From the NCBI GenBank assembly GCA_025352685.1, contig JANXSN010000084.1, positions 1-64,000 of the forward strand: DNA of 64,000 nt, read 5' to 3'. Made by a program: the position numbers and the translations under genes. The notes beneath the pieces are model-generated. The model worked only from the letters and a program-made list of their open reading frames with translations, made no database searches and had not been told where the DNA came from. Positions 34,317-37,688 of the stretch are shown here, piece after piece (position 1 is the first letter of the stretch; the number at the start of each line of letters is the position of its first letter). The DNA comes from Sphingomonadales bacterium. Its GTDB lineage: Bacteria > Pseudomonadota > Alphaproteobacteria > Sphingomonadales > Sphingomonadaceae.

Positions 34317-37300
34317 TTACGACGAGGCGGCAACGCGCCCCGATCGCTCGAGCTTGCCCCACCCCACACTAGGTCCGCGCAGTGCCGCACCGACAGCCTT
34401 CAGCACGACCCAGTACATAAGCTGTCGATAGACGAATCGTTGCGCGACAAGCAGGTGGGCAGGGTAGCGACGCTCTCGGGGATCAAGCCAATAGGCAACG
34501 GCACCGCAGGCGATGTCAATCAGCGTGAAGGCCATCCAGTAAATGCCCATCGTCAGCACGTCGGACTGGGTTTGCGCCCAGCCATGCTGGCGCACTCGGA
34601 TCGTGGTTTCGATGAGGCTCACGACCAATGCGAAGTCGATGATCGGCGAGACCACGGCAAAAGCGATCTGGAACAACCAGGCTTGCGGCAATCCCACGAG
34701 CGCCAGCCCCAAAGGCTTTCGAGTCCGAAAGACGCCGCCGTGCTTCCAAAGGCATTGCAAGGTGCCGTACGACCACCGGAAGCGTTGCTTGGCGAGCGAA
34801 CGGAAGCTTTCGGGAGCCTCGGTCCAGGCAACCGCTTCGACGTCGTAGCCGATTCGCCAGCCAACGCGCTGGATGGCGATTGTCAGGTCCTGATCCTCGG
34901 CGAGCGTGTCGGTCGGATAGCCGCCGACCGCATCGAGCGCGACCCGCCGCCAGGCGCCCACCGCGCCAGGCACGACCGTAATGGCATCGAACTGTGTCAG
35001 CGCGCGGCGTTCGAGGTTTTGAGATGTTACATATTCGACGGACTGCCAGCGCGTTACGAGGTTGAACCGGTTGCCGACCTTTGCGTTGCCCGCGACGGCG
35101 CCGATTTCGGGGTCGTCAAACCAGCGCGCGAGCAGGGCAACGGTATCTTTTTGGAAGCGGGTGTCGGCGTCGAGCGCAATGATGACGTCGCCTCTAACAA
35201 GAGCGAGACCCTGGTTGAGGGCGCGCGCCTTGCCGCCGTTTTCGAGTGTCAGCAGACGGACGCGCGGCTCATCGCCAAAAGCTTCTCGGACAACGGCGCT
35301 TGTTGCATCCGTCGAGCCGTCGTCAATAACGAGAACTTCCAGTTCGACTTGCTCGCTCGCGAGCACGCGGCGGATCGAATCGGCGATGACGCGCTCCTCG
35401 TTAAATGCCGGGATAAGCACCGAGACAAAGCGCGTCGGATCGATGGCAGGCGGGACCGCCCGACCGCGCCCGAACCGATCGCGAAGCGCCAAGCCCGCCA
35501 TCAGCACGGCGCGCGCGATACCGAGGGTAATCGCCACGAAGAACAGCCACTTAATCGTCCAAAAGACGCCTGCAATCAAAAGAAAGACACCAATGTCGGC
35601 TTGAACGGCGCGCAGATCCCATCCCGTGACAGGCGGCATAACCACGGCGCGCGACGTGCCCGCCAGCTCCGAGATCGTCACCAGCGTTAAGCCCTTGGCA
35701 CGCAGGCCATCAATGATCGCGGGCAAGGCGGCCAACGTCTGTGACCGGTCGCCGCCTCCGTCGTGGAGGAGCACGATCTTGGTCGGCTCTTCGGCGGTAC
35801 CAGCTTCGACCTTGGCCAAGGTCGCATCAACAATCTTTTTCACACCCGGGCGCTGCCAATCGTCGGGATCGACATGCAGTCCGACGTTCAAATAGCCGCG
35901 CTGTTGAGCAATGAAGGCGGGTTGGAGTTCGTCAGTCGTGGTCGGTTCAGCGTCGCCAAAATAGGGCGCGCGAAACAGCCGGACTGATCGCCCGGTATAG
36001 GCTTCGATCAAGCGCCGGGTGGTATTAAGTTCGAGCCTGATGCCGGTATCGGAGACCTGCGCCATGTTCGGGTGGGTATAGCTATGGTTGCCGATTTCAC
36101 TGCCCCCCGCAATGATCCGGTTGAGAAGTCCGGGCATCGACAAAGCATTTTCGCCAATCACAAAAAACGTGGCTGCCGCGTGCTTGGCCTCGAGCACGTC
36201 CAGAATCTTGGGTGTCCAGTTCGCATCCGGGCCGTCGTCGAACGTCAGGGCGACCATACCCGCACGATTGCCCCCGCGGCGAACAACGAACGGCGTTGGC
36301 AGCTGGGTAAATTGTTGATTGCGGATCAACCCGGCATGGTCGAAATCGATCTGTCTGATGCCGTCCCGCGGCGTCGATTCAATCCGGAGCAACTCGCCTG
36401 CGCCCTGAACATCGACATTACCGACCGGCGTGAAGCGCGCCAGGTCGGGCGTGCGACCAGTCGGCAGTGCTTTTGCCGCTGCCCAATAGCCTACGTCCTC
36501 GCTCCCTAGTCGCCACAGCGCAAAACCGGCGACGTTCTCGGCCCTTGTCGCGCGCAGTTGGTTCCAGGCGCTCGCCGCATCGAGCATCCAGATCTCGTGC
36601 CGGGTGCCGTTTTCCTCGTACGCAAAATGGCTGTTGCCGCTCACCGGATCGAACTTCGGCATCGCTTCGCTATCATTGGCCGCAAGCCAGGCTTCTTCAT
36701 CGGTCATGTTGTCGGCGCTGCCGTCGTGCCAGTCATAGGCATAGCTGCCGATCGCAACGATCGCCTTGGACGGCGGCACTTCTTGCAACACGCGCCTCAG
36801 ATTGGCAACGAACCACGATTGTGAAGCAATCGGGCCGGCACCCTCTCTAGGCGAATGCTCGTCGTAATTCATGAGAAACAGGTGATCGGCAACGGCGGCA
36901 AACGCTCGAACGTCCCAGCCCGGGTTGTCGAGAGGCACAGCAAGGGTCACTTCCCAGTGCTTGGGTGCAAACCGCGCATGCGCCTCTTTTAGGAACGCGA
37001 GATATCCCGGGAGCGCTGCATCAGGCAGCTCTTCGAGATCGAAGACGACGCCGCTGCCGTTTTGCAGGACAACGACCCGGTCGGTCCATGCCAGAAAGGC
37101 TGCGCGGCGGGTTGGGCTGCTCAGAATTTCGCCCATGCCGACGCCGTCCCATTTGTCGCCCGCGGCATTTTGCACCATCGGCAGGATCCGAGGCGGATCG
37201 GCGTTGCGGCGGACCACAGCTTGGAACTGTGGATCGGGAATGTAGGTTCGCGTCCGTCCGGCATCGGTCACTGAGGCGATCGCGGGGACCACCCAGTCGA

Positions 37301-37631
37301 TGTCGTCGATGTGCCTAATCAACGATGCCCGGCTATCCGGGTCCCAGGGCACATAGAACGCGACCGAAACCGGTTTTACGCGCGCAACACCCGCCCGTGA
37401 GGGCGGCAACCATATGCCGGCGCTGCGCCGCAAGCGAGACACCTGGTCCACGAGAGGACGGGCCTGACTCCGTTCGCCGACGGGATGAAGCGCCCGGCCA
37501 GCAGGGACCGCGGCGATCGTCCATGCAAAGCCGACGGCAGCAAGGGCAATCAGCCCAAGCAGTGCTGCAACAACACGTTTGGACCACAGGCTGCGTTTGC
37601 CGCTTGCGTCGAAGAAAATTGGTCGGTCCAT
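34317..37631 (-). CDS. GH18-like / polysaccharide deacetylase / GT2 glycosyltransferase fusion protein
   Basis: This 1104-residue membrane protein joins three enzyme types. After an N-terminal span (about 20-42) comes a GH18-like domain (about 85-390) with FDLEEL at 197-202 as its DxE-type catalytic strand. A CE4 NodB deacetylase domain follows (about 455-660) with TFDDGPD at 463-469 and HSYTHP at 516-521. After further spans a processive GT2 domain starts (about 735) with DDG at 770-772, DAD at 821-823, AEDQD at 911-915 and QRFRW at 949-953; more spans lie at the C-terminus. It probably polymerises an N-acetylhexosamine chain and deacetylates or trims it on the outer face. ATG 37631 is used; the upstream extension is unlikely. 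Confidence 0.85.
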   Translation of the reverse strand: MDRPIFFDASGKRSLWSKRVVAALLGLIALAAVGFAWTIAAVPAGRALHPVGERSQARPLVDQVSRLRRSAGIWLPPSRAGVARVKPVSVAFYVPWDPDSRASLIRHIDDIDWVVPAIASVTDAGRTRTYIPDPQFQAVVRRNADPPRILPMVQNAAGDKWDGVGMGEILSSPTRRAAFLAWTDRVVVLQNGSGVVFDLEELPDAALPGYLAFLKEAHARFAPKHWEVTLAVPLDNPGWDVRAFAAVADHLFLMNYDEHSPREGAGPIASQSWFVANLRRVLQEVPPSKAIVAIGSYAYDWHDGSADNMTDEEAWLAANDSEAMPKFDPVSGNSHFAYEENGTRHEIWMLDAASAWNQLRATRAENVAGFALWRLGSEDVGYWAAAKALPTGRTPDLARFTPVGNVDVQGAGELLRIESTPRDGIRQIDFDHAGLIRNQQFTQLPTPFVVRRGGNRAGMVALTFDDGPDANWTPKILDVLEAKHAAATFFVIGENALSMPGLLNRIIAGGSEIGNHSYTHPNMAQVSDTGIRLELNTTRRLIEAYTGRSVRLFRAPYFGDAEPTTTDELQPAFIAQQRGYLNVGLHVDPDDWQRPGVKKIVDATLAKVEAGTAEEPTKIVLLHDGGGDRSQTLAALPAIIDGLRAKGLTLVTISELAGTSRAVVMPPVTGWDLRAVQADIGVFLLIAGVFWTIKWLFFVAITLGIARAVLMAGLALRDRFGRGRAVPPAIDPTRFVSVLIPAFNEERVIADSIRRVLASEQVELEVLVIDDGSTDATSAVVREAFGDEPRVRLLTLENGGKARALNQGLALVRGDVIIALDADTRFQKDTVALLARWFDDPEIGAVAGNAKVGNRFNLVTRWQSVEYVTSQNLERRALTQFDAITVVPGAVGAWRRVALDAVGGYPTDTLAEDQDLTIAIQRVGWRIGYDVEAVAWTEAPESFRSLAKQRFRWSYGTLQCLWKHGGVFRTRKPLGLALVGLPQAWLFQIAFAVVSPIIDFALVVSLIETTIRVRQHGWAQTQSDVLTMGIYWMAFTLIDIACGAVAYWLDPRERRYPAHLLVAQRFVYRQLMYWVVLKAVGAALRGPSVGWGKLERSGRVAASS

Positions 37632-37688
37632 CTCCGAGCGCCTAGGAGCTTGTGTCGATTTACGGAAGGTCAAAGTGGCAGTCGCGCC

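Follow-up and report, generated by a model that had tools for sequence, protein, structure and literature searches.

A membrane protein of Sphingomonadaceae that carries GH18, CE4, and GT2 domains in one chain

According to the available text of PMC5933820, PgaB and PgaC bring a deacetylase, a hydrolase, and a glycosyltransferase of family 2 (GT2) to bear on one polymer, and the PgaB hydrolase defines family GH153, which lacks the catalytic motif of glycoside hydrolase family 18 (GH18). In Streptomyces, the accessible part of PMC5972031 describes MatB as an extracellular deacetylase of carbohydrate esterase family 4 (CE4) joined through a membrane helix to an intracellular GT2 domain, the whole being required for poly-N-acetylglucosamine (PNAG). 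The closest relatives of the MatB CE4 domain are PgdA, chitin deacetylase, and NodB, and the product nonetheless behaves as PNAG. Here, we describe a gene from 64,000 nucleotides of Sphingomonadales bacterium DNA (GenBank assembly GCA_025352685.1, contig JANXSN010000084.1, positions 1 to 64,000; hereafter, the window) that encodes a membrane protein with GH18, CE4, and GT2 domains. MatB is the closest described protein, and from its sequence the tri-domain chain appears to be a MatB-like synthase–deacetylase with a GH18 domain in front. We consider it probable that the protein acts in the inner membrane as a self-contained machine that makes a partly de-N-acetylated polymer of the poly-N-acetylglucosamine (poly-GlcNAc) type. 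No published description of the three-domain architecture was found in aimed literature searches, whose coverage excluded most subscription journals. The nearest mention is in PMC4928363, which surveys cellulases, xylanases, and chitinases; GT2 and polysaccharide deacetylase appear there among the domains that co-occur with such hydrolases, and the tri-domain chain is undescribed in the available text; the accessible parts of PMC6337780, PMC7482071, and PMC6307706 have no bearing on the architecture.

Three enzyme domains in a single polypeptide

Pfam, AlphaFold2, and fold searches of the PDB agree on all three enzyme domains, as an initial annotation made from the sequence alone had proposed. 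From N to C terminus, the chain comprises a membrane helix, a GH18 barrel, a small beta domain, CE4, a membrane helix, GT2, and further membrane helices (Table 1). The AlphaFold2 model, built from a 30-sequence alignment, has a mean predicted local distance difference test (pLDDT) score of 85.2 but a predicted template modeling (pTM) score of 0.59, so the folds of single domains can be trusted and the inter-domain arrangement cannot.

The first domain matches GH18 (PF00704) over residues 165–376 at 51.6 bits (cut-off 29.6). Residues 86–393 superpose on CvChi47 (PDB 5jh8) with a Z score of 34.5 and a root-mean-square deviation of 2.1 over 301 residues, and SleL (4s3j) gives a Z score of 33.7 (Foldseek, VIA-align); the closest GH18 structures are chitinases and spore cortex-lytic enzymes. 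Members of GH18 bear a DxxDxDxE signature that includes the catalytic Glu, together with the Tyr of MxYD, and cut at N-acetylated residues by a substrate-assisted mechanism. In the tri-domain protein, D198, E200, and M254-x-Y256-D257 are present, the last at the end of strand 250–254 of the modeled barrel. We take D198-x-E200 and M254-x-Y256-D257 to be the acid and intermediate-holding residues of GH18. Structure prediction upholds a domain first described as "GH18-like" as a real GH18 fold with its catalytic Glu; the first two Asp of the signature are replaced. A PgaB-like hydrolase was considered and set aside: Pfam and fold searches returned GH18 rather than GH153, with no PF14883 (GH153) match by Pfam at E up to 1.

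Metal-binding and catalytic residues mark CE4, and the DD, DxD, ED, and QxxRW motifs mark processive GT2 enzymes. All of the residues listed for both domains are present, in line with the original claim of intact motifs: D465, D466, H516, H520, R554, W592, and H623 in CE4 (PF01522, residues 456–557, 107.8 bits, above cut-off) and D771, D821, D823, E912, D913, Q949, R950, R952, and W953 in GT2 (PF00535, residues 737–900, 107.8 bits, above cut-off). The best models for CE4 are PdaB, NodB, and PgdA, and its PDB relatives include chitin and peptidoglycan deacetylases. A hidden Markov model (HMM) of the family's CE4 domain scores NodB at 140.9 bits versus 9.8 for PgaB; the corresponding GT2 model scores NodC at 127.1 bits. 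Fold relatives of GT2 are PcManGT and the hyaluronan and cellulose synthases (Foldseek, VIA-align). With its motifs and flanking membrane helices, the GT2 domain has the marks of a processive synthase, and a polymer product is predicted. The top NCBIfam model for the protein is PgaC_IcaA (TIGR03937, 184.9 bits), and the scores for NodB (TIGR04243, 137.8 of 240 bits) and NodC (TIGR04242, 103.6 of 550 bits) lie below the equivalog cut-offs.

Hydropathy marks residues 21–39, 673–714, 976–1007, and 1025–1046 as hydrophobic stretches. The positive charge flanking helix 21–39 is greater on its N side, which predicts a periplasmic GH18 and CE4; this suggests a topology with both domains outside the cytoplasm and GT2 inside.

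The start codon is the ATG at 37631, with an in-frame TTG upstream at 37673. That misassembly or misreading fused neighboring genes into an artificial open reading frame (ORF) has negligible probability. One copy, from Sulfitobacter OXR-159 (L149:5341-8850), is indeed annotated as two genes, yet the break runs through CE4 and looks like a frameshift. The same domain order recurs in a single open frame in many genomes and several phyla, and long homologues (50–68% identity) from 24 further genomes of the same family exclude chance; misassembly and a chance ORF are ruled out by these homologues.

Table 1. Coordinates of the tri-domain gene and its features in the window
Feature	Residues	Position	Strand	Basis
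Whole gene, GH18–CE4–GT2 membrane protein (1104 aa + stop)		34317..37631	(-)	ORF, Pfam, homologues
N-terminal membrane helix	21-39	37515..37571	(-)	Hydropathy and flanking charge; helix 12-40 in model
GH18 (beta/alpha)8 domain	86-393	36453..37376	(-)	Pfam; PDB 5jh8 superposition
GH18 catalytic D198-L-E200, end of strand 194-198	198-200	37032..37040	(-)	Model, motif check, alignment
Small beta domain between GH18 and CE4	398-455	36267..36440	(-)	Strands in model
CE4 polysaccharide deacetylase domain	456-662	35646..36266	(-)	Pfam; PDB 7fbw TMt 0.92; motifs
Long helix with hydrophobic stretch, predicted return of chain to cytoplasm	670-720	35472..35624	(-)	Model, hydropathy
GT2 domain with DDGS, DxD, ED, and QRFRW motifs	730-966	34734..35444	(-)	Pfam; PcManGT 6yv7 Z 31.8; motifs
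C-terminal membrane helices	974-1049	34485..34712	(-)	Model, hydropathy

Distribution and active-site conservation

We sampled 149 genomes from the family to which the window belongs, and 25 of them have matches of 50–100% identity that extend over 911 residues or more. A sample of 398 genomes from the phylum gave 9 with matches that span 77% or more of the protein; both counts include the window's genome. In a class sample of 385 genomes, 9 have a match to the copy from Rhizobium albus (E ≤ 1e-70). Named carriers, those on plasmids included, fall in six phyla. Those among the best 80 of 485 relatives include Sphingomonas, Novosphingobium, Phenylobacterium, Bryocella, Granulicella, Flavobacterium, Segatella, Rhizobium, Methylobacterium, Defluviimonas, Limimaricola, and metagenome-assembled genomes of Verrucomicrobiota and Gemmatimonadota. 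Plasmid-borne copies are found in Sphingobium, Sphingomonas, Deinococcus, Prevotella, and Sulfitobacter; those with annotations are mostly labeled glycosyltransferase or glycosyl transferase family 2. The small beta domain, searched with an HMM built here, matches most tri-domain homologues except those of Verrucomicrobiota and the Rhizobium–Methylobacterium clade.

Conservation was assessed across 75 aligned rows, which are not independent: the window's protein is identical to L005, and some rows nearly duplicate others. All 75 rows, spanning several phyla, retain the GT2 active-site residues. CE4 residues are likewise kept in 75 of 75, with Tyr in place of W592 in five rows of the Rhizobium–Methylobacterium clade. 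All six GH18 positions (D198, E200, M254, Y256, D257, and W373) are kept in 56 rows, one or more are altered in 17, and two rows leave the region uncovered. The catalytic Glu is lost in 15 of the 17 altered rows; the other two, L083 and L089, retain D198 and E200 and lose Tyr256.

Another 29 relatives, all actinobacterial, have a CE4–GT2 arrangement and no match to the GH18 model built here. In a GT2 tree, these and the tri-domain proteins group apart from Escherichia coli PgaC and NodC, weakly (Shimodaira–Hasegawa-like approximate likelihood ratio test, 69), and 28 of the 29 CE4–GT2 rows are nested within the tri-domain rows (support 77). Given such support, the tree fixes neither gain nor loss of GH18.

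A few copies are irregular. L010 (G025:C251) has an in-frame TAG and ends ~55 residues early, right after the last predicted membrane helix. The gene on QDFQ01000004.1 (L065, "Arthrobacter sp. TPD3018") sits beside Sphingomonas faeni in the tree, and the label of that genome is probably wrong. Two loci from the R. albus family (L206 in G1128 and L207 in G908) encode a GT2 near that of the tri-domain protein (357 and 342 bits) without an in-frame CE4 or GH18.

Gene neighborhoods and altered GH18 domains

Ten proteins between 29265 and 47798 of the window were scanned with Pfam and proved to be housekeeping or transport proteins. No exopolysaccharide synthesis gene is among them, which bears out, for that span, the initial annotation's statement that none flanks the gene. 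The nearest genes are RelA/SpoT-type, M19 dipeptidase, dihydrofolate reductase, and ThyA. A conserved operon around the window gene was sought and not found, and in the sister genome G090, whose contig covers a single flank, the neighbors on that flank are different. Elsewhere in the window's genome lies a second CE4/GT2 locus (L212, G000:C88:68950-79376), which encodes, in order, a PAS-rich hybrid histidine kinase, a 608-residue CE4, a tetratricopeptide repeat protein, a HEAT-repeat protein, and a 546-residue GT2.

Three clades have their own recurrent neighbors. In six genomes, a Poly_export gene and then a stand-alone GH18 with a DGxDxDxE signature lie downstream of the tri-domain gene and on its strand: R. 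albus (L085, the genome of L202), Methylobacterium segetis (L088), three members of the R. albus family (L203, L204, and L205), and one genome of another family (L191). At L203 and L204, both neighbors were recognized through similarity to the R. albus ones alone. These loci form one clade, with the built-in GH18 altered in 6 of 6; five of the stand-alone GH18 proteins are alike, and the Methylobacterium copy is divergent (PF00704, 33.8 bits). The presence of Poly_export and GH18 beside the gene ties this Rhizobium–Methylobacterium branch to an exported polysaccharide. In Verrucomicrobiota, GH18 residues are altered at all four loci, and an open frame for a GH26-like protein (E 4.9e-27 with "Endoglucanase H," a GH26 protein in the PDB) lies directly downstream at three; at the fourth, L080, only 543 bases follow the gene, and no GH26 start was seen in them. 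In a Rhodobacterales clade (Sulfitobacter, Limimaricola, Defluviimonas, and two other genomes), a DUF3131 gene adjoins the synthase at all five counted loci, downstream in three and divergent in two. The broken OXR-159 locus retains a DUF3131 remnant, and the short contig of L087 shows no DUF3131 in ~1 kb after the gene.

We then compared altered loci, defined by a change at any of the six GH18 positions, with unaltered ones, counting stand-alone GH18, GH26, and DUF3131 as neighbors, categories that were picked after the altered loci had been seen. Among 67 rows with usable flanks, an extra conserved gene is present at 14 of 16 altered versus 0 of 51 unaltered loci. Counting only neighbors from proven glycoside hydrolase families gives 9/16 versus 0/51, and restricting alteration to loss of E200 gives 12/14 versus 2/53; of the three Verrucomicrobiota rows in the count, L083 and L089 are altered through Tyr256, not D198/E200. 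Neighbor genes were sought by tblastn in all 78 sequences and the GH18 signature at all loci but the last, with flanks of varying length (minimum ~0.8 kb after the gene). Rows left out were L080 (543 bases of downstream flank); L087 (GH18 region uncovered); L024, L079, L081, L067, and L010, which are short, cut, or duplicate; L005 (the window's protein); and L029, L117, and L149 (masked, cut, or broken). Pfam scans of a downstream ORF found a glycoside hydrolase family at 0 of 30 unaltered loci, with 9 of the 30 matching no family; these 30 came from 45 unaltered loci with a listed downstream ORF, two scans concerned the second ORF, and the ORF calls were naive, so some frames may be wrong.

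On the CE4–GT2 tree, GH18 alteration takes three changes, at least two of them forced by supported branches. Supported independent phylogenetic pairs number two, one of which has the association, a result far from significant. Two altered Acidobacteriaceae loci have no candidate replacement gene and contradict a strict rule; one of the two has an adjacent GH92 gene on the opposite strand. Because the gene classes were chosen post hoc and only two independent comparisons are supported, the association of altered GH18 with an extra gene, in three clades with three different neighbors, is suggestive and not statistically established.

A possible but doubtful explanation is that chain cutting is obligatory and that a dead built-in GH18 was replaced at least three times by a recruited hydrolase: GH18 in the Rhizobium–Methylobacterium clade, GH26 in Verrucomicrobiota, and DUF3131 in Rhodobacterales. 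That DUF3131 is a hydrolase is a guess; its fold model has a pLDDT of 33.9 (two sequences), and a PDB sequence search gave nothing of note (best E 0.55). If this replacement account holds, DUF3131 would be a new glycoside hydrolase family, and three genes of the Rhizobium–Methylobacterium clade (tri-domain protein, outer-membrane exporter, and GH18) would make up a minimal exopolysaccharide system. Nature supplies both altered and unaltered GH18 domains, the former with candidate replacement genes next to them, so that the need for cutting can be tested independently, and the fate of GH18 across phyla may surprise specialists.

Other neighbors are more scattered. An MprF-type lysyl-phosphatidylglycerol (LPG) synthase gene lies near the tri-domain gene at L148 (8001-14699), L147, L067, L064, and L072, with VirJ/AcvB added in the Sphingomonadaceae cases. 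In Sphingobium TomMM7A, the tri-domain, MprF-type, and VirJ/AcvB genes are consecutive, the first two overlapping, and a two-component system follows. Both the tri-domain and MprF-type systems would make the envelope more positively charged. A general MprF/VirJ linkage was rejected: full-length MprF occurs at only 5 of 78 sequences, from four species, plus a weak partial match at L155, and no LPG synthase match turned up in the window's genome, which places MprF/VirJ outside the core. Histidine kinase or response regulator genes lie near the tri-domain gene at L147, L148, L161, and L165, and in similarity clusters at L154, L166, and L180; such genes are common, and their proximity may be chance. 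In some Sphingomonadaceae (L169:6608-8008(-), L170:11329-12648, and L171:11338-12744), a ~450-residue membrane-like protein, with no Pfam match when scanned in L171, overlaps the tri-domain 3′ end. Acidobacterial loci L073, L074, L077, and L078 have a protein cluster divergently upstream, the L073 copy with a sub-cut-off PMT_2 match. On a Kocuria rosea plasmid (L151), a CE4–GT2 gene is convergent with an annotated chitinase whose GH18 match is weak (22.9 bits, under the cut-off).

A candidate polymer machine and its relation to described systems

The initial annotation proposed that a poly-N-acetylhexosamine is made, deacetylated, and trimmed in a coupled way, and this is the preferred, if inferred, interpretation. 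As an inner-membrane machine for a poly-GlcNAc-type polymer, the tri-domain protein would work as follows. The cytosolic GT2 would polymerize a uridine diphosphate–linked amino sugar and thread the chain through the protein's own membrane helices, CE4, held at the periplasmic surface of the inner membrane, would strip off acetyl groups, and GH18, tethered beside it, would cut the emerging chain and so set its length or free it. GH18 would tend to cut where CE4 has yet to act, which would link acetylation pattern to chain length. In its favor are the three folds, the predicted inside–outside pattern, the conservation of GT2 and CE4 residues across several phyla, the top rank of PgaC_IcaA among NCBIfam models, the MatB precedent, and the Poly_export partner in the Rhizobium–Methylobacterium clade. 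Several results weigh against such a machine. The alterations in 17 of 75 GH18 rows are one, and the uncertain layout of the domains at a pTM of 0.59 is another. The PgaC_IcaA score falls short of its cut-off (184.9 of 422.3 bits). No PgaA or PgaB exceeds its cut-off in the window's genome (best TIGR03939 score, 22.9 of 366.65 bits; no TIGR03938 match at E 0.001; PgaD was outside the search). None of the ten neighboring proteins that were scanned is an exporter of this kind, and the genome's single Poly_export match sits on another contig.

The altered rows lend themselves to a different, unlikely account in which GH18 is mainly a polymer-binding guide and hydrolysis is not its essential job. 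The domain is retained in four clades despite such changes, 15 of them removing the catalytic Glu, and the two altered Acidobacteriaceae loci lack any candidate replacement; against this, most rows keep all six positions, and altered copies usually adjoin another conserved gene. As for the product, a beta-1,4 chitin- or chitosan-like polymer in place of PNAG is a serious contender, at somewhat less than even odds. The nearest structural relatives of GH18 and the CE4 models and PDB relatives point that way, but GT2 scores higher with PgaC/IcaA than with NodC (103.6 bits), and the MatB CE4, as far as the available text of its description goes, is likewise near PgdA, chitin deacetylase, and NodB with a PNAG-like product. 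Since the CE4 model ranks NodB far above PgaB and the PDB relatives are peptidoglycan and chitin deacetylases, linkage is not settled by sequence. The MatB precedent slightly favors beta-1,6, and GH18 with a NodB-like CE4 favors beta-1,4.

It is improbable that the product is a short glycan or a modified envelope lipid or peptidoglycan, comparable to the short chito-oligosaccharides of NodBC, rather than a long exopolysaccharide. The NodB ranking of CE4 would fit, as would the lack of an adjoining exporter in the window, a GH18 that would hold chains short, and the MprF-type gene nearby in four species, with VirJ in three, both of which act on LPG. Yet QRFRW with a multi-helix membrane part is typical of polymer-extruding GT2 enzymes, the Rhizobium–Methylobacterium clade has its Poly_export partner, both Nod scores lie under their cut-offs, and a search of the window's genome gave no match to an LPG synthase.

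The polymer machine resembles several described systems. The tri-domain GH18 shares its fold and active-site region with SleL, YdhD, and CvChi47 (5jh8), whose solved chains (317–436 residues) have no fused deacetylase or glycosyltransferase. NodB and NodC have CE4 and GT2 domains of related type that act in sequence, as is proposed here, but are encoded by separate genes alongside NodA and without GH18. The initial proposal of PgaB and PgaC fused into one chain holds as an analogy and not as an identity: PgaB is a separate periplasmic protein with CE4 followed by GH153, whereas GH18 here precedes CE4 and is tethered to the synthase, CE4 is NodB-like, neither PgaA nor PgaB exceeds its cut-off in the genome, and MatB is nearer. 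Since GH153 in PgaB is without the GH18 motif, GH18 would be a different solution to the equivalent step, provided that both proteins serve one and the same pathway. For Gram-negative pgaB clades, the available part of PMC7112194 reports deacetylase–glycosyltransferase fusions whose operons have no detectable pgaA and pgaD. In those fusions, the glycosyltransferase is N-terminal and a canonical hydrolase domain is lacking, although a figure legend refers to putative fusions with a C-terminal hydrolase; GH18 is not named anywhere in that main text. The tri-domain protein fixes synthase, deacetylase, and hydrolase one to one in a single chain, and because one polypeptide carries all three, each activity could be switched off by one substitution. 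Among the scanned neighbors, no MatA-like gene was recognized, unlike the situation of MatB. Like MatB as described, the tri-domain protein joins a CE4 predicted to be extracytoplasmic, a membrane helix, and a GT2 predicted to be cytosolic in one chain; unlike MatB, it places a GH18 domain ahead of CE4.

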